Source: Baaleninema simplex PCC 7105 (lineage in GTDB: Bacteria > Cyanobacteriota > Cyanobacteriia > Cyanobacteriales > Geitlerinemataceae). Taken from it: 47,506 bases of DNA. Positions within the stretch are counted from its first letter, which is position 1. Every line of letters starts with the position of its first letter. Where the stretch lies: the NCBI RefSeq assembly GCF_000332355.1, contig NZ_KB235959.1, forward strand, positions 564,021-611,526. The letters run 5' to 3'. A program made the translations under genes and the position numbers. Positions 30,236 through 47,506 of this stretch are shown here, piece after piece. The notes under the pieces were generated by a model. The model was given only the letters and a program-made list of their open reading frames with translations. It made no database searches and was not told the DNA's origin.

Positions 30236-31411
30236 ATGGAACAAATCCTGACTGTCGTTTGCCAGTTAAAGGCCACCGCCGAGCAAAGTGCCGCCCTCTT
30301 GCGAGTTGCACAAGCATTTGCCGCAGCCTGTAACCTTACAAACTCTGTCGTTCGTCCGGCTGTGACCAGCAAAACAACAATTCAGTCGTTGGTCTATCGG
30401 CAACTGCGAGAATCCTTCGGACTGAGTGCCAATCTTGCGGTTCGGGCCTGTGCGCGAGTCGCCGCAAACCGAAAAACGGCAAAGGCAAAAGGGCGCGAAG
30501 TCAACGCATTCAAACCCACCAGTGTCGATTACGATGCGAGAGTGTTTTCATTCCGGGAAGACGATTGGACGGTTAGCCTTTCTACAACGAGTGGGCGGGT
30601 TCGAGTCCCCATCGTTGCCGCCCCTTACCAGAAAGGGAAACTGAGCGAACAAAAGCCGACTTCGGCGCAACTGTGCAAGCATCGCGACGGTCTGTATTAT
30701 CTCCACATCCAGGTCAAAAGGTCAGCGCCAGAAATGTGCGATTCGCAAAGTGCTGTGGGTGTGGATCTGGGACGCCGCGACATTGCCGTAACGTCAAAAG
30801 GGCAGCGCTGGAACGGCAAAGACATTCAGGAAAAGCGAGACAAGTACGCTCGCGTTCGGGCGTCGCTCCAAAAAAAAGCCTCGAAAGGCACAAGGTCAAC
30901 TCGCCGTCGGGCGAGACAGGTCTTGAAACGGCTGTCGGGCAAGGAGCGACGCTACCAACAATGGCTAAATCATAATATCAGTCGTCAGATCGTCGATTTT
31001 GCGAAACAGCAAGGCCTATTTATTGCCATCGAAGACCTTTCCGGGATTCGAGAGCGAACCAACCAACAGCCTCGCAACCAAACCGAACGCCGCCGCTCGA
31101 ATAGCTGGGCGTTTTATCAGTTGCGGCAATTTCTGTCTTACAAGGGAATAACTGAAGGCGTGTTGGTGCTTGCCGTGCCGCCTGCTTATAGCAGCCAAAC
31201 GTGCCATCACTGCCTGCATATCCATCCGGTCAAAGGAAAGTCCTATCGTCAGGGTAAGACGTTTCGATGCGGGAATTGTGGCTGGCTTGGCGATGCTGAC
31301 GACAATGGTTCCAAGGTTATCGAATTGATTGGGGTCGCCGTAAACCGGCCCGGAGGTTCGGGGCTGTTTTGCAGTCTCAGGGCTACGGAAAGCCATTTAT
31401 CTATCGCTTAG
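30236..31411 (+). CDS. tnpB: TnpB RNA-guided nuclease, zinc-ribbon type
   Basis: The 391-residue protein appears complete. RuvC D lies in AVGVDLGRRDIAV (about 180), E in LFIAIEDLSGIRER (about 263), and D in GDADDNGSKVIEL (about 360). The zinc ribbon is intact: CHHC at about 324, then CGNC at about 345. The helical insert KASKGTRSTRRRARQVLKRL lies between the first two motifs. It starts at the ATG 30236, right after a plausible minus-10 box (TATCGC region is weak). The element sits between yggT and the ytxH gene without breaking either. It belongs to a different subgroup from the tnpB copies at 12046 and at the window edges. Confidence 0.9.
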   Translation: MEQILTVVCQLKATAEQSAALLRVAQAFAAACNLTNSVVRPAVTSKTTIQSLVYRQLRESFGLSANLAVRACARVAANRKTAKAKGREVNAFKPTSVDYDARVFSFREDDWTVSLSTTSGRVRVPIVAAPYQKGKLSEQKPTSAQLCKHRDGLYYLHIQVKRSAPEMCDSQSAVGVDLGRRDIAVTSKGQRWNGKDIQEKRDKYARVRASLQKKASKGTRSTRRRARQVLKRLSGKERRYQQWLNHNISRQIVDFAKQQGLFIAIEDLSGIRERTNQQPRNQTERRRSNSWAFYQLRQFLSYKGITEGVLVLAVPPAYSSQTCHHCLHIHPVKGKSYRQGKTFRCGNCGWLGDADDNGSKVIELIGVAVNRPGGSGLFCSLRATESHLSIA

Positions 31412-34221: not shown

Positions 34222-34836
34222 TCACGTATTTTCCGCACTGATATTCGTTCCTTCTTCCAACAAGGTGAAGTCCACTCCGGCGTAAATATCGCTCGACGCC
34301 AGGGGCAAATTCAGCGAAGCCAACGTTATTACATCATTTTGAGTTTCATAGTCGCTCAAGAGCCATCGATCGCCTTCCTGTCGTAAGTGCTGTAACACCC
34401 GCCAGCGAGACTGTTCTACGAGTAGATATTCCTGAAAACTGGGTAAAGAACAATAGTAATCAAACTTATCGCCGCGATCGTAGTTCTTCGTGGATTTCGA
34501 CGCAACTTCCACGATTAGGATAGGATTTATCACGGTGCTAGTACCTGCCCCGTGATAAATCGGTTCCCCAGGAATCACCATCACATCTGGATAAGTATAA
34601 ATCCGATAGCGTTCGATCCATATTCGCACGTTTTCCGTAAACAGCCGATAGCCCCGAGTACGAAGCTGTGGCTTGAGTGCCACACACAAGTTCGTCACGA
34701 TCTCGTTGTGGTTGGTTGTTCCCCCTGCCATCGGCACGATATCCCCATCGCGATATTCACTGCGAAAATCTGCCTGTGCTTCGAGTTCTAAATACTCTTG
34801 AGGACTGTAGTAACGTTGGCCAACTCGAACAACCAT
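34222..34836 (-). CDS. Uma2 family protein (DUF820)
   Basis: The 204-residue protein has the PD-(D/E)XK-like fold typical of Uma2, a family hugely expanded in cyanobacteria. Candidate active-site residues are D84 in TYPDVMVIPG, E110 in PILIVEVASKS and K124 in RGDKFDYYCSLP. Other family motifs: YLELEAQADFRSEYRDGDIV at the start and EYLLVEQSRWRV later. A nuclease role is assumed from the fold but has little experimental support. It is the first gene of the AT-rich block; the ATPase/TOPRIM-like pair is next to it on the same strand but upstream, 115 bases away. Confidence 0.85.
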   Translation of the reverse strand: MVVRVGQRYYSPQEYLELEAQADFRSEYRDGDIVPMAGGTTNHNEIVTNLCVALKPQLRTRGYRLFTENVRIWIERYRIYTYPDVMVIPGEPIYHGAGTSTVINPILIVEVASKSTKNYDRGDKFDYYCSLPSFQEYLLVEQSRWRVLQHLRQEGDRWLLSDYETQNDVITLASLNLPLASSDIYAGVDFTLLEEGTNISAENT

Positions 34837-34950: not shown

Positions 34951-35469
34951 TTAAACAAATAAAAACTCTCCACACGATCGCATCAACCGTTCTCGTTCTC
35001 GATCGTTATGTCGAAGCATTTCGTGATTCCACAACTCACTTTGAGAATGGGGACAATCTCGAGCAAGTTCGTTCCCGATCGTCTCGAAACTCATCTTGAC
35101 AGTCGAACGTAAAGTTTCCGGTTCGTCTCGCACGCCAAGAACAAACGTTCTCTCTTTAAGATCGGAAGGAATTCGACTGTCAATATAATCCAATCGTCTT
35201 TGGATGTTCGAGCGATCGGGATCGTTGACAAAAAATTCATCATCAAAATCAATCAACAGCAGAATTCGTCTCTGCCGAAACTGACGCATTTTAGAAATAT
35301 GGTCGTGTTCAAATTTTTCAAAAACGTCTTTTGTGCCTTTGGCAAATGGTAAAATTTGGAGCGATCTAGTATTGACGTTCAGACTGTTGTGAAAGCCGTT
35401 TGCAATATCTTTTGTGGCTTCGTCCTCTGGTAAAATTAAGAGATGAGGGCTAAATTTGTTCGGACTCAA
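34951..35469 (-). CDS. Small TOPRIM-like protein, partner of the upstream ATPase
   Basis: I start at the TTG at 35469, whose TTGA overlaps the ATPase stop TGA; another TTG at 35487 is possible, and there is no ATG before residue 60. The 172-residue protein opens SPNKFSPHLLILPEDEATKD. An acidic strand end E15-D-E17 and a second strand LLLIDFDDE (70-78, D74 D76) give the E...DxD layout of TOPRIM nuclease folds, with the strand FVLGVRDEPETLR (about 109-121) after them. The C-terminal part is helical and charged. TOPRIM partners of OLD or AAA15 ATPases include AriB of the PARIS anti-phage system, but this protein is shorter and its family is not known to me. TOPRIM assignment is inference from the motifs. 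Confidence 0.6.
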   Translation of the reverse strand: MSPNKFSPHLLILPEDEATKDIANGFHNSLNVNTRSLQILPFAKGTKDVFEKFEHDHISKMRQFRQRRILLLIDFDDEFFVNDPDRSNIQRRLDYIDSRIPSDLKERTFVLGVRDEPETLRSTVKMSFETIGNELARDCPHSQSELWNHEMLRHNDRERERLMRSCGEFLFV

Positions 35470-36569
35470 AGCTCGATATCTCCACAAACTAGCGAAGTAA
35501 TAATATCTTCCGAAAGATTGAGTTCTTCTGCCAATCGAACGAGCGTCGGTTCCAGATGGCTTTTTCGATCTAACACGAAGATATTTTCTCGAGAAAATCT
35601 TTGAATCGCCTCGGGATTGTGAGACGTAACTAAAATTTGACTTTCACTTTGTTGAAACGATTTTCTCAAGGACACTATGAAATGTCCGACTTCCGATAAA
35701 GATAAATGGTTGTCGGGTTCGTCCCAAAAACAGAACAGAGAACGATAAGCTCGGTTTGCAGCTAATACGGCTGCACCGACAAAAAAGCATTTTTCGCCAC
35801 TTGACAAGTCTTCAAAACTTAATTCAAAGGTCGATCGTCCCTCAAAAGTTACTTTTAATTCTTTAGAGTATTTACCCGTCGGCTCGTATCGAAATTCTCG
35901 CAAATCCGGAATGACTTGTCTCAAATACTGCTCGAAAACCGAATAGGATGCCGGATAACGAGACAACAAACCCGTCAGCCAATTACTGATATTCTCTGCG
36001 TAAAGATTAGGATATAGCGTTTCTCCACTCGATTCTGACAACATTAAATGCGGAACTGGAGACAATAAAATAATACGTGAAAGCCAATCTTTCCAGATGC
36101 GAAGCGGATCGGATGAAGATTGTTCTTGAATAATCGGCAAGGCAATTAAATGCCAATCTACTAAAAATTGAACTTCCCTTTCATCCCGAGTAAGTGTCAC
36201 CTGTGCGAGTTCTCGAGAGTAGAGTGCTTCCCCGTCCACCTTTAGCGCTTCTTCAAGGACTCGATATTCACTAAAATTTTCGGAACGCTCGAAGGCCAAA
36301 TGATATTCATAGATTCGATCGTCTATTTCAACTTCGATTTCAAAGCGAATTGGAATCGAAGTTCGATAATACGAGGCATCTTTTACGTCTACAATCTCTT
36401 TAACCCGATTCGTGCCGCGCCCGATTTTTTGAAAAATCTCGAGAACGCTCATAACCGTCGATTTTCCCGAGCCATTTTTTCCAATCAGCAAAGCGGCATG
36501 ACAGTCGATAAGCTTAAGCTCGAAATTTTCAAAGCAGCGAAAATTGTTGACGTAAATCCTGTTTAGCAT
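35466..36569 (-). CDS. RecF/OLD-like ABC ATPase of a two-gene module
   Basis: The ATG at 36569 gives 367 residues starting MLNRIYVNNFRCFENFELKL, the standard opening of AAA15/RecF-type SMC-like ATPases (a frame extension to a TTG at 36611 is rejected). Walker A is GKNGSGKST (30-38), the signature is LSSGEK (255-260), Walker B is LFCFWDEPD (278-286) and the switch is TSHNPE (315-320). There is no nuclease domain fused to it. The gene overlaps the small TOPRIM-like gene by a TTGA, so both are translated together. This split of ATPase and nuclease is typical of anti-phage modules such as PARIS. The DNA is AT-richer than the flanks, suggesting transfer. Confidence 0.85.
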   Translation of the reverse strand: MLNRIYVNNFRCFENFELKLIDCHAALLIGKNGSGKSTVMSVLEIFQKIGRGTNRVKEIVDVKDASYYRTSIPIRFEIEVEIDDRIYEYHLAFERSENFSEYRVLEEALKVDGEALYSRELAQVTLTRDEREVQFLVDWHLIALPIIQEQSSSDPLRIWKDWLSRIILLSPVPHLMLSESSGETLYPNLYAENISNWLTGLLSRYPASYSVFEQYLRQVIPDLREFRYEPTGKYSKELKVTFEGRSTFELSFEDLSSGEKCFFVGAAVLAANRAYRSLFCFWDEPDNHLSLSEVGHFIVSLRKSFQQSESQILVTSHNPEAIQRFSRENIFVLDRKSHLEPTLVRLAEELNLSEDIITSLVCGDIEL

Positions 36570-38458: not shown

Positions 38459-39526
38459 ATGAAACCCGATCCCAAAGCGTTACTCGATCGCCTAACAGCC
38501 CTCGAATCCGAACTCGCCCAACTCGGTAACGTCACCGACAGCACTACGTTAGGGGCGTTGAAAACCCTGCTGCAACAACAACAGGCTACCGCAGCCCGCG
38601 ATCCCAAAACCTCGGCGATCGCCCTTCTCGATCGCTTCTTGGCGTTAGACCATCAAGACCAACCGGGATTTCCGCCCCTGGCCCAATACAAACAGCAGGT
38701 GCGCCAGTTTCGCACCCAAGTCGAAAACGCCTCCGAAACCGACTTACCCGCCGATGTCAACCAATTGCTAACGGGCAAACATCCCGTCAGTCAACTCCTC
38801 AAGGCGATCGACGAAGGGGACAACCTCACCGACGCCCAATGGTCGAGTTTACAAAGCGTCCTGGTGAAAGTCTTCGGTCAAGCAGTTTCCATCGCCGCCT
38901 CGCGAGGTAAACTCTACGTCGCCACCCGCCAACCCCAACCCGCCGCCACCCCAGCCGCAGCGACCCCTAAACCCGCTTCCCCCAACGAAGACTTACTGAT
39001 GTGGGGCGACGCCACGGAAAAAGCCGCCCAACCTTCCGCCGAACCCTCCGACGACGAACCGTTAATTGTCTTCGGTGCCAAGAGTCTGGGAATTGAAAAC
39101 CAACCCGGTGGAACCGTTCCTCTCAACGTTTTGGTTCATATCCAAGGCTTGGGCGATCGCCAGTTCGGGGCGCGAGAATTCGCCGGAACGCGGGGTCAAT
39201 CGAAGGCGATCGAAGGATTGCAACTCAGTTTCGCCTCTCCCGTCGCCGGATTGAACATCGAGTACATGGCGCACTTAGCCGGTGTCGGCGATACCCCCTG
39301 GATGTCAGCAGGGCAATATCTAGGAACCCGGAACGAAAACCGCCAACTCGAAGGGTTCGCCGTTCGGTTAGTCGGTGCCGAAGCCAGCAAATACAGCGTG
39401 TGCTACTCCGCCCACGTTCAGAACATGGGAGATACCCCCGTTTACGCTGACGGACAGTTTTGTGGAAGCCGGGGTAAATCCCTGCGCGTCGAAGGTTTGC
39501 GCGTCTGGGTACAGCCGAAAGCCTAA
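38459..39526 (+). CDS. ChW-repeat protein
   Basis: The 355-residue protein has a helical N-terminal part (about 1-150) with a low-complexity Q/P/A linker (about 160-215) and three C-terminal ChW-like repeats: about 226-265 (VLVHIQGLGDRQFGAREFAG), 268-305 (IEYMAHLAGVGDTPWMSAGQ) and 312-352 (YSAHVQNMGDTPVYADGQFC with RVEGLRVWV). The repeat pattern is HvQ..G(D/W)..v..G...GT.G...R.EG; here a D takes the place of the usual tryptophan. ChW modules were first known from clostridial secreted proteins. No signal peptide is visible, so the protein may be cytoplasmic or non-classically exported. Function is unknown. Confidence 0.7.
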   Translation: MKPDPKALLDRLTALESELAQLGNVTDSTTLGALKTLLQQQQATAARDPKTSAIALLDRFLALDHQDQPGFPPLAQYKQQVRQFRTQVENASETDLPADVNQLLTGKHPVSQLLKAIDEGDNLTDAQWSSLQSVLVKVFGQAVSIAASRGKLYVATRQPQPAATPAAATPKPASPNEDLLMWGDATEKAAQPSAEPSDDEPLIVFGAKSLGIENQPGGTVPLNVLVHIQGLGDRQFGAREFAGTRGQSKAIEGLQLSFASPVAGLNIEYMAHLAGVGDTPWMSAGQYLGTRNENRQLEGFAVRLVGAEASKYSVCYSAHVQNMGDTPVYADGQFCGSRGKSLRVEGLRVWVQPKA

Positions 39527-45554: not shown

Positions 45555-46049
45555 ATGTTCGAGCAAACGTTTAAAAATATCGACGACGTTCTCTGGAAAG
45601 AAGCCGGGTGCGCCACCGAACTCGACTACACCGAACAAACGTCCTGGCTGTTGTTTTTGAAGTATCTCGACGACCTCGAACGAGAGCGATCGCAGAAAGC
45701 CGAATTAATGGGGGAGTCCTACGACTTCATTCTCGAGGAACCCTATCGTTGGTCGTACTGGGCGGTTCCGAAAAAGCCCAACGGTGAAATCGACCGCGAT
45801 CGCGCCCAGACGGGAGACGACCTCATCACCTACGTCAACGAGGTTCTGTTTCCCCATTTGCAAGGGTTCAAGCAACGCGCCGCCAGTTCCGATACCGTCG
45901 AATATAAAATCGGCGAGATTTTCGGCGAAATTAAGAACAAGTTTCAAAGCGGTTACAGTCTGCGCGAAGCGTTGGAGTACGTAGACGAGTTGCGGTTTCA
46001 GTCTCAGGACGAGAAACACGAGCTGTCTCACCTCTACGGGAGGGAGTAG
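45555..46049 (+). pseudogene. hsdM: Type I restriction-modification methyltransferase HsdM, N-terminal remnant
   Basis: The 164-residue frame matches the N-terminal helical domain of HsdM (MFEQTFKNIDDVLWKEAGCA, WLLFLKYLDDLERERS, YRWSYWAVPKKPNGEIDRDR, and ELSHLYG). An intact HsdM has 450-550 residues and continues after LY with the SAM domain containing NPPF; here it ends in GRE and a stop at 46047. The family sequence is lost from about 46035 on, where the tnpB element's left part begins. The methyltransferase is therefore truncated and cannot methylate. Whether the rest lies beyond the right tnpB copy cannot be seen. Confidence 0.8.
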
Positions 46050-46052
46050 TTC

Positions 46053-46263
46053 GGGCTTGCTGTATAAAACTGAAATGCAGACCCGGAAAGAGTTTTGAGG
46101 ATTTTTTTGACCCGCTAGTGCAAGGTTTTCCCATCGAGACGCTCAAAAACCTTGCATTTTCGTCGGCGATGGCCGATTTAATGGGGAAGCTAGAGTCCAA
46201 AACGACCATTGGGCAAGCTGTACGGCATCAGAATTCGCTCTGTTCGTCTTTTTCAGCAAGCCC
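46053..46263. mobile_element. 211-bp MITE with a 6-bp target duplication
   Basis: GGGCTTGCTG (46053-46062) is repeated inverted as CAGCAAGCCC (46254-46263), flanked by perfect direct repeats TAGTTC (46047-46052 and 46264-46269). No gene inside. The right end extends as AGGGCTTGCTGAAAAAGACG in inverted form, the same end found alone at 7856. The stop codon of the hsdM remnant falls in the left copy of TAGTTC. Confidence 0.85.
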
Positions 46264-46317
46264 TAGTTCGCTTAAGCCTAGGAAACAAATATTTATTTCA
46301 TAGGCTATAATAATTTC

Positions 46318-47506
46318 ATGCTAAACATGACGTGGGAATTCAAGCTAGAGCCAACGGCGGAGCAGGTTTCAGACATCGAACACATTTTGGATGTGTGCCG
46401 CAATGTCTGGAATTTTGCCCTGCGGGAACGTAAGGATTGGCTAAATTCCCGAAAGTCGCCCGTGAATGCGTGTTCCATCGTGCAGGAATACATCTTGCCT
46501 GCGGATGCACCATTTCCCAGCTATGCGCGGCAGTGCAAGTCCCTAACTGCGGCCAAAGCTGAATACCCCCGATTGAAGACTGTCAACGCTCAGGTTCTTC
46601 AACAAGTCATCCGAAAACTGGAAGCCTCCTGGGAGTCGTGGCGGTTAAAGCGTTCGGGTCTTCCACGGTTCAAAAAACCCAACCGGATGCGAAGCTTTGT
46701 CTTCCCCCAGATGCTCAACGCTTCGGCTCCGCTCAGCGTTGAGTCCGAGCGGAGTCGAGGACTCAAAAACTGTGTGTCTGATGAGGGTATAAAGCTGCCG
46801 CAACTGGGATGGGTTACGGTGCGCTGGTCGCGGAAAATTCCTGATTTATTCCAGGTTAAGCAAGCTCGAATTGTTCGCAAGGCATCCGGGTACTTTGTCG
46901 TGCTTAGCCTTCAGGCTGACGTCGATCTTCCTGCTGTAGCCCCTCATGGACATCCAGTAGGGATTGACGTTGGACTGGAGTACTTTCTTTCAACGTCTGA
47001 TGGAGAACAGGTCGAGCGACCTCGCTTCTTCAACAAACTGCACCGCAAGCTGAGATTGCTGCAACGCAGGCTTAAGAAAAAGCAGAAGGGGTCAGCTAAC
47101 TGGCTGAAACTCCAGAAGAAAATTGCCAGAGTCCATCAACGTATTGCCGATACGCGAAAAGACTGGCATTTCAAGCTGGCTCATCACCTCTGTGATGGTG
47201 CAGGGATGATTTTTGTAGAAGATCTCGACTTCCGTATCATGGCCAAAGGGATGTTGGGCAAACACACCCTCGATGCTGGATTGGGTCAATTTGTGAATCA
47301 GATCCTTCCCTGGGTGTGCTGGAAGCGTGATGTCTTTTACGGCAAGGTGGATGCTCGTGGCACTTCTCAGGAATGCCCAGACTGTGGAGTGGAGGTTCGC
47401 AAAGATCTCTCAACTCGAATCCATCACTGTCACAACTGCGGGTCAACAAAGCCCCGTGATGTGGCGAGTGGACAAGTTATCTGTACCCGTGGGCAACGGG
47501 GAATCG
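46318..47506 (+). CDS. tnpB: TnpB / OrfB, runs off the right edge
   Basis: From the ATG 46318 the frame is open to the window end (396 codons). It starts MLNMTWEFKLEPTAEQVSDI, the same as the gene on the other strand at 419. RuvC D is in VGIDVGLEYFLSTS (about 218), E in IFVEDLDFRIMAKG (about 301) and D in PRDVASGQVI near the end. The zinc ribbon is intact (CPDCG at about 357, CHNCG at about 374). A 48-bp palindromic insert at 46714-46761 adds 16 residues in frame that the left copy lacks. The stop lies outside the window. A TATAAT box is 7 bases before the ATG. Confidence 0.9.
   Translation, partial: MLNMTWEFKLEPTAEQVSDIEHILDVCRNVWNFALRERKDWLNSRKSPVNACSIVQEYILPADAPFPSYARQCKSLTAAKAEYPRLKTVNAQVLQQVIRKLEASWESWRLKRSGLPRFKKPNRMRSFVFPQMLNASAPLSVESERSRGLKNCVSDEGIKLPQLGWVTVRWSRKIPDLFQVKQARIVRKASGYFVVLSLQADVDLPAVAPHGHPVGIDVGLEYFLSTSDGEQVERPRFFNKLHRKLRLLQRRLKKKQKGSANWLKLQKKIARVHQRIADTRKDWHFKLAHHLCDGAGMIFVEDLDFRIMAKGMLGKHTLDAGLGQFVNQILPWVCWKRDVFYGKVDARGTSQECPDCGVEVRKDLSTRIHHCHNCGSTKPRDVASGQVICTRGQRGI
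46714..46761. repeat. 48-bp palindromic insert in tnpB
   Basis: The left-edge copy lacks these 48 bases. They are bordered by the direct repeat CTCAA (46714-46718 and 46762-46766) and contain the perfect stem CTCAACGCT/AGCGTTGAG plus GGCTCCGCTC/GAGCGGAGTC. The insertion is in frame (16 codons). Confidence 0.8.

Follow-up and report, generated by a model that had tools for sequence, protein, structure and literature searches.

A compact ATPase and TOPRIM-like gene pair of Baaleninema simplex PCC 7105, a candidate split OLD abortive-infection module

The window analyzed in this work, a stretch of 47,506 nucleotides from the cyanobacterium Baaleninema simplex PCC 7105 (RefSeq assembly GCF_000332355.1, contig NZ_KB235959.1, positions 564,021 to 611,526), carries at positions 34951-36569 of its minus strand two overlapping and intact genes, coding for an ABC ATPase of the OLD type and for a small TOPRIM-like protein. 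Our analyses are consistent, with a probability that we place at roughly 0.6, with this pair being a minimal, chromosomally encoded split OLD/TOPRIM abortive-infection module, which resembles PARIS and AbiL and belongs to neither family. The pair is compact (~1.6 kb) and its predicted active sites are strongly conserved. On comparative grounds, we further lean towards the proposal that it represents a class of split OLD immunity still without a name, which occurs in eight phyla or more and for the most part away from recognizable defence islands, and in which a minimal TOPRIM effector of ~160-170 amino acids (aa), with little beyond the catalytic core, would be accompanied by its own OLD-type ATPase and would possess its own trigger and nucleic-acid target.

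ATPases associated with TOPRIM domains have been reported from OLD, Gabija, retrons, AbiL, MADS and PARIS, and homologues of the TOPRIM domain of AriB are said to occur in many uncharacterized defence systems (PMC12409363, available part); split ATPase/TOPRIM pairs constitute a recurrent immune design. According to the portion available of another study, discovery based on co-localization cannot find systems located outside defence islands (PMC13092281). If defensive, the pair reported here would be a case beyond the reach of co-localization and neighbourhood-based discovery, as well as a small model for the control of a separate TOPRIM nuclease by an OLD ATPase.

The two genes and the predicted fold of their products

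A first-pass annotation of this DNA, made from the letters alone, had read the motifs, strand and coordinates of the pair correctly. The ATPase translation contains a Walker A motif (GKNGSGKST), a signature (LSSGEK), a Walker B motif (FCFWDEPD) and an H-loop (TSH), which are RecF/Rad50-related features of the ATPase half of OLD-family proteins, and it lacks a nuclease domain of its own. In Pfam, the ATPase matched AAA_15 with 73.6 bits (cut-off 32.1) and AAA_21 with 67.8 bits, and its best PADLOC models were AbiLi (9.5e-26), AriA and HEC-01A, with AbiLi and AriA scoring above HEC-01A (PDLC04178, 73.0 bits) and mad3 reaching 59.8 bits. The predicted structure (pLDDT 92.9) had retron Ec83 PtuA as its best match in VIA (Z 22.3, rmsd 4.2 over 302), with SMC and Rad50 heads within ~1 Z of it. 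Nine catalytic residues, located in Walker A (G35, K36), the signature (S256, G258, E259) and Walker B (D283, E284) and at S316/H317, were invariant in all 51 ATPases aligned, namely that of the window and 50 of 74 near-full-length relatives.

The same annotation had noticed that the genes overlap at a TTGA junction, that the small protein has an E...DFDDE layout, and that the block is richer in AT than its surroundings, all of which was borne out. The overlap is present, and the two genes may be translationally coupled across it; the translated motif of the small protein reads LPEDE...LLLIDFDDE; and the GC content is 41.2% in the pair vs 52.2% in the window, where 2.4% of 459 overlapping bins of equal length, the pair's own bins included, are as GC-poor. 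The small reading frame is kept at ~36-60% identity across other genomes and, considering also the AAA_15 score above its cut-off and the constant company of an ATPase relative described below, the pair is more than a chance arrangement.

No family could be named for the small protein at first pass, nor was any found in our searches, in which Pfam, PADLOC and NCBIfam gave nothing at E ≤ 1 and PHROGs nothing at E ≤ 0.1. Family scans were carried out on 77 sequences, corresponding to the window small protein and 76 relatives. At E ≤ 1 their Pfam listing contained 24 families, with neither DUF4435 nor RloB (PF13707) included and with weak matches such as DUF3226 and DUF4276 in one sequence each; weak PADLOC matches were to HEC-01B (at most 6 of the 77 for one model, best E 7.1e-4), ATPase-Toprim_I-B (two), RT-Toprim (one) and mad4 (one), and the NCBIfam scan gave no convincing match. 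The small family is not described in the passages of the literature searched; these did not include the ABC ATPase classification of Krishnan et al. (PMC7544218), which may describe the pair. Elsewhere in the host genome, candidate TOPRIM partners with RloB-, DUF4276/HEC-01B- and weak DUF4435-type matches were also observed (Table 1).

Structure prediction from the 77 sequences yielded a model of the small protein with pLDDT 90.3 and pTM 0.87. In Foldseek the OLD nuclease 6p74 ranked second (E 0.085), and in the VIA re-alignment its residues 369-525 occupied the top row (Z 7.4, rmsd 4.7 over 138 residues). Judging by titles, TOPRIM proteins made up 33 of the 50 VIA matches listed, mostly repeated gyrase and type II topoisomerase entries, together with a second OLD protein, 6nk8. 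The viral library gave ranks 1, 2 and 7 to an RloB-like protein, a phage primase/helicase and a Toprim protein, respectively, each with E > 0.03. TOPRIM domains carry an acid after strand 1 and a DxD motif after strand 3, and the E...DxD layout of the small protein (E15, D74, D76) agrees with this definition. According to the alignment and the model, E15 stands directly after strand 9-14 and D74 at the end of strand 67-74, both in 77 of 77 sequences; D76 is conserved in 76, and E118, after strand 108-113, in 73. Since a Z below 8 is ambiguous when taken alone, it is the placement of these conserved acids that decides the assignment: a TOPRIM fold is very probable for the model, with E15, D74 and D76 as putative metal ligands.

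Pairing, spread and decay among relatives

Genome contigs were scanned using an alignment of 21 cyanobacterial copies of the small protein, and the best 80 of 134 relatives were kept. In all 80, an ATPase relative (43-61% identity by local alignment) was located just upstream on the same strand, which is an independent observation, since the scan used the small protein only. A 4-base overlap was found in 71 of these loci, nearly always as ATGA, and eight more had junctions between -14 and +2; the large apparent overlap in locus L103 is probably due to a frameshift. The ATPase match was partial in six loci, at a contig end in L038, L089 and L094 but not in L052, L096 and L103, and a stop codon was present inside the small gene in three of the 80. 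No fusion of both proteins occurred among these relatives, the ATPase frame stopping beside the small gene.

A tree built by a quick method from the window pair and those of 74 of the 80 loci (75 pairs in total) comprised eight named phyla altogether: Cyanobacteriota (44 rows), Pseudomonadota (12), Acidobacteriota (6), Thermodesulfobacteriota (5) and Chlorobiota (3), with single rows for Verrucomicrobiota, Chloroflexota and Calditrichota, in addition to KSB1 and the window. Some phyla are split on this tree, its starred branches forcing at least three changes each for Pseudomonadota and Thermodesulfobacteriota, which suggests that the pair may have been transferred. The branch of the window pair is long and falls apart from the main group of cyanobacteria, and its position is unsure. 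Many relatives come from metagenome-assembled genomes; not so titled are those of Stella sp. ATCC 35155, Giesbergeria anulus and Methylobacterium sp. NEAU 140. The cyanobacterial hosts, from freshwater and soil, include Nostoc, Anabaena, Microcoleus, Planktothrix and Dolichospermum. Small-protein matches at E ≤ 0.01 were obtained in 30 of 386 cyanobacterial genomes, and in 26 after dropping four weak ones (L027-L030, E 0.003-0.009), which had no adjoining ATPase relative.

Both genes are full length in 18 of 28 cyanobacterial loci, including one with an in-frame insertion in the ATPase (G127). The remaining 10 are broken as assembled, several of the genomes being drafts with possible assembly errors: four have a broken small gene and a full-length ATPase (G354, G157, G064 and G229), three have a full or nearly full-length small gene and an ATPase that is truncated or gone (G298, G087 and G231), and in three both genes are broken (G308, G306 and G072). 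The pair is thus likely to be dispensable, and its patchy presence and decay fit with a dispensable conflict gene. The lone small genes (L002/L230 in G298, L022/L133 in G087 and L015 in G231), beside which the N-terminal part of the ATPase is lost or the ATPase is gone, constitute natural tests of effector silence without the ATPase. Among 11 pairs of close relatives, the differences between ATPases fall mainly on third codon positions, a bias that is less clear in the small gene, so that the effector seems to evolve faster than the ATPase.

The arrangement of the pair beside glcD was found in only one of 12 other genomes of the family, G298, three of them ending at a contig edge. Where the upstream flank of glcD was readable, the pair was absent in eight of nine other family genomes, the ninth being G298 with its truncated ATPase, and the DNA upstream of glcD varies among family members.

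Genomic setting of the pair

The neighbourhood survey covered the two nearest genes on each side, 292 in total, as delimited by simple longest-frame gene calls, some of which are false. It left out 13 genes longer than 900 aa (nine nearest and four second-nearest), so that 141 nearest and 138 second-nearest proteins were retained, and the Pfam scan was applied to the nearest genes. The scans list 25 families out of 75 and 124, and the count of loci flanked by defence genes is accordingly given as a lower bound. These loci are included in Table 1. L095 was counted as an HsdS/HsdR locus because the start of its downstream gene is identical to that of L105. Anti-phage systems frequently reside in defence islands, and some of the pairs sit inside defence operons, that of Giesbergeria, for instance, between HsdS and HsdR. 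Helicases of the SngC/BrxH type can be housekeeping, and for this reason L043, whose neighbouring helicase matches these models, was left out of the count. The same upstream neighbours were shared by eight relatives, mostly of the Microcoleus/Tychonema type.

Around the pair itself, the flanking genes scanned with Pfam were UPRT, homoserine dehydrogenase, Uma2, FAD oxidase, TnpB-like and ChW genes. The adjoining Uma2 gene had been taken as a clue at first pass; the gene is indeed present, but it is uninformative and carries no weight, as the 6.15-Mb host genome holds 93 Uma2 matches, an expansion of this putative nuclease fold. Of the 12 other family genomes in which glcD was matched, 7 likewise have a ChW protein next to it.

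A type I restriction locus is located ~9 kb from the pair and contains hsdM pieces, hsdS, a PDC-S02-type nuclease and hsdR pieces; as read by eye, a TnpB-type gene lies between the hsdM pieces and a transposase-type sequence between the hsdR pieces. Beyond it, ~25 kb from the pair, lies a CRISPR array. PADLOC matched neither of the two genes scanned among those that separate the pair from the restriction locus, and the pair is therefore near, and not in, a defence island.

Table 1. Features of the window, of the host genome (G000) and of the loci of relatives. Unprefixed positions are those of the window.
Feature	Position or locus	Strand	Basis or remark
RecF/Rad50/OLD-type ABC ATPase (AAA_15/AAA_21), 367 aa	35466..36569	-	ATG start; translation and Pfam
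Small TOPRIM-like protein, 172 aa	34951..35469	-	TTG start; translation, model and conserved acids
TTGA junction, 4-base overlap	35466..35469	-	ATPase stop TGA / small-gene start TTG
Uma2 gene adjoining the pair	34222-34836	-	Pfam
ChW protein, three ChW (clostridial hydrophobic W) repeats, beside glcD	38459-39526		Pfam
TnpB-type gene	30236-31411		Pfam
TnpB-type genes at window ends	3-419, 46318-47505		read by eye
Type I restriction-modification locus	45555-47506 and beyond (L236:576-10426; G000:C5 ~609575-619425)		
CRISPR array, at least 10 copies of a 37-base repeat (GTTGAAAAACCCAAAAATCCCTTCTAGGGATTGAAAC)	L236:16300-17061 (G000:C5 ~625300-626060)		
RloB-, DUF4276/HEC-01B- and weak DUF4435-type matches	G000:C4:1070143-1070673, C4:1102834-1103403, C2:3739-4386, C4:3575115-3575465		
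Type IV Mrr neighbour	L031		
Septu PtuAB pair, adjoining	L032		separate system
Pair between type I HsdS and HsdR	L105		
Pair counted with the L105 setting	L095		
NERD helicase neighbour	L096		
PglZ of BREX	L099		~3 kb away

Proposed function, alternatives and comparison with known systems

We regard a role of the pair in defence as somewhat probable, and infer complex formation, nuclease activity and phage sensing as its steps. As an OLD ATPase half that lacks the nuclease, the ABC ATPase would act as sensor and regulator, forming a multimer that holds the small TOPRIM protein inactive and responds to a phage product or to a state brought about by phage. The effector would be the 172-aa TOPRIM protein, a metal-dependent nuclease acting through E15, D74 and D76, which may cut tRNA as AriB does or DNA as OLD and GajA do, and this cleavage would stop growth or phage replication. 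In the available part of PMC9122126, PARIS needs both genes and both predicted active sites, and deleting either gene is not toxic. Given these properties and the known ATPase/TOPRIM associations, a PARIS-like logic is the simplest explanation for the pair.

Several observations weigh against a defensive split OLD module. Metabolic genes are the commonest neighbours, the leading families listed for the 141 nearest ones being DUF212 (8), YbjN (7) and oxidoreductases, while defence genes visibly adjoined at least 6 of the 80 loci, a raw count with no background for enrichment. The first-pass annotation had proposed a survey of homologues for pairing and defence islands, and had named scattered single genes in housekeeping contexts as a finding that would speak against it; pairing held in all 80 loci kept, whereas metabolic neighbours were the commonest, so that this warning sign applies in part. 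A pattern scan of IMG/VR and the phage records gave no relative, and the plasmid records yielded a single one, on a 1.2-Mb Kovacikia record. Regarding the fold, the structure prediction and search proposed at first pass placed the OLD TOPRIM at the top in VIA, but Foldseek gave no match at E ≤ 0.001 in either library searched, and the Z of 7.4 is near those of unrelated alpha/beta folds, lumazine synthase being second in VIA with 7.0. Moreover, the window copy has T at position W46, where 75 of the 77 sequences have W, although E15, D74, D76 and E118 are all present. In the family scans, unrelated families equalled or exceeded the TOPRIM ones (T4_Rnl2_C in 5 of 77 sequences and REase_II in 3 of 77), and the weak matches to TOPRIM families are thus taken as hints only. 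Finally, profile comparisons of the small family were insignificant with 14 DUF4435 proteins (hhalign, E 0.32), 18 RloB proteins (E 0.13), HEC-01B (E 0.16) and DUF4276. The alignments of RloB, DUF4435, DUF4276 and HEC-01B used here were shallow, drawn from 98 or 146 cyanobacterial genomes. Control comparisons of RloB with DUF4435, both TOPRIM families, and of RloB with DUF4276 were insignificant as well, and the sole significant comparison was the control of HEC-01B with DUF4276 (99.7%); since the RloB controls also fail, the failed placement by profiles reflects a limit of the method and counts for little.

Metabolic neighbours would also be expected if the pair were a DNA-repair or cell-cycle module, with a RecF/Rad50-like or archaeal Cran1-like ATPase and a housekeeping TOPRIM nuclease, which we consider unlikely. 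This is a real rival, as the OLD-family protein Cran1 serves cell-cycle progression and apparently not defence (PMC12796447, in the part available). It is further favoured by the eight relatives with common upstream neighbours, which point to stable inheritance at one site, and by the ATPase model, to which SMC and Rad50 heads are about as close as PtuA is. Such a module would, however, predict steadier conservation than the presence in 26 of 386 cyanobacterial genomes, the 10 broken loci of 28 and the absence beside glcD in eight of the nine readable family genomes. Alternatively, the ATPase may merely neutralize a constitutively toxic TOPRIM protein, as in a toxin-antitoxin pair, an explanation to which we give a low probability. 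The gene overlap and the obligate pairing fit with it, and so do the four genomes having a broken small gene and a full-length ATPase; besides, AAA proteins neutralized TOPRIM_OLD toxins in two tested pairs, according to the portion available of PMC10440598. Conversely, the three genomes that keep the small gene without an intact ATPase speak, weakly, against an always-active toxin, whose free form would forbid such survival unless unexpressed, and the harmless deletion of either PARIS gene (PMC9122126, available part) points in the same direction.

Very improbable, in our view, is that the small protein is not a nuclease and adopts another Rossmann-like fold, for instance that of a receiver-like signalling domain. 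Receiver domains carry similar acids, two of them following strand 1 as a pair and another following strand 3, and the response regulators 3heb (Z 5.5) and 2qxy (Z 5.0) appear in the VIA list, in which other non-TOPRIM folds reach 7.0. Nevertheless, the receiver family is easily detected and does not appear in the Pfam listing of 24 families at E ≤ 1; the model has no clear fifth strand after residue 113, and D76, the second acid of the DxD motif, is conserved in 76 of the 77 sequences.

Regarding known systems, the split OLD/TOPRIM module proposed here shares with PARIS (AriA of AAA_15/21 type and AriB with DUF4435; class 4 OLD) the location of ATPase and TOPRIM nuclease in adjacent genes. 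A phage anti-restriction protein activates PARIS, whose AriB cleaves tRNA. PARIS detection thresholds, in the accessible part of PMC9122126, are >32 bits for AAA_15, >27 for AAA_21 and >27 for DUF4435, and the window ATPase passes both that concern it. The profile searches suggested at first pass thus returned AriA among the best PADLOC models of the ATPase, but no DUF4435 among the matches listed for the 77 small proteins. As had been noted, the partner is also shorter than AriB, with 172 aa vs the ~240-340 aa frames of DUF4435 matches of non-fusion size. Membership in PARIS was rejected, as it calls for an adjacent DUF4435 protein. AbiL (RloA-RloB) is likewise bicistronic, with an ATPase and a TOPRIM-related partner (PMC10440598, available part), and AbiLi is the best PADLOC model of our ATPase; unlike in AbiL, however, no RloB (PF13707) partner was listed for the 77 sequences, the hhalign comparison was insignificant, and membership was rejected on this basis.

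HEC-01, formed by the HEC-01A ATPase and a DUF4276-type HEC-01B, and MADS are similar in their ATPases, as judged by the HEC-01A and mad3 matches, in the few small-protein relatives weakly matching HEC-01B or, in one case, mad4, and in the similar order of acids in the small family (E after the first strand, DxD, then E-x-E). The window small protein itself matches neither HEC-01B nor mad4, the profile comparison with HEC-01B was insignificant, and no methylase was present among the flanking genes scanned; membership in MADS was not adopted. OLD proteins of classes 1-3, GajA of Gabija and the retron Eco8 effector contain the same two domains, and the OLD TOPRIM is the nearest solved structure to the small protein; unlike class 1 OLD and GajA, the domains are separate proteins here, with none fused in the 80 relatives. 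Gabija was rejected on this ground and for the absence of a UvrD-like GajB among the flanking genes scanned, where no reverse transcriptase was found either, thus rejecting class 3 OLD (retron). Septu is approached through retron Ec83 PtuA, which tops the structural comparison of the ATPase, but the partner here is TOPRIM-like and not an HNH protein, and the Septu pair next to the L032 relative is a separate system. From the first-pass proposal of a PARIS-like or new split ATPase/TOPRIM system, membership in PARIS was dropped, while the split pair itself stands, with TOPRIM as the best structural reading of its small protein.

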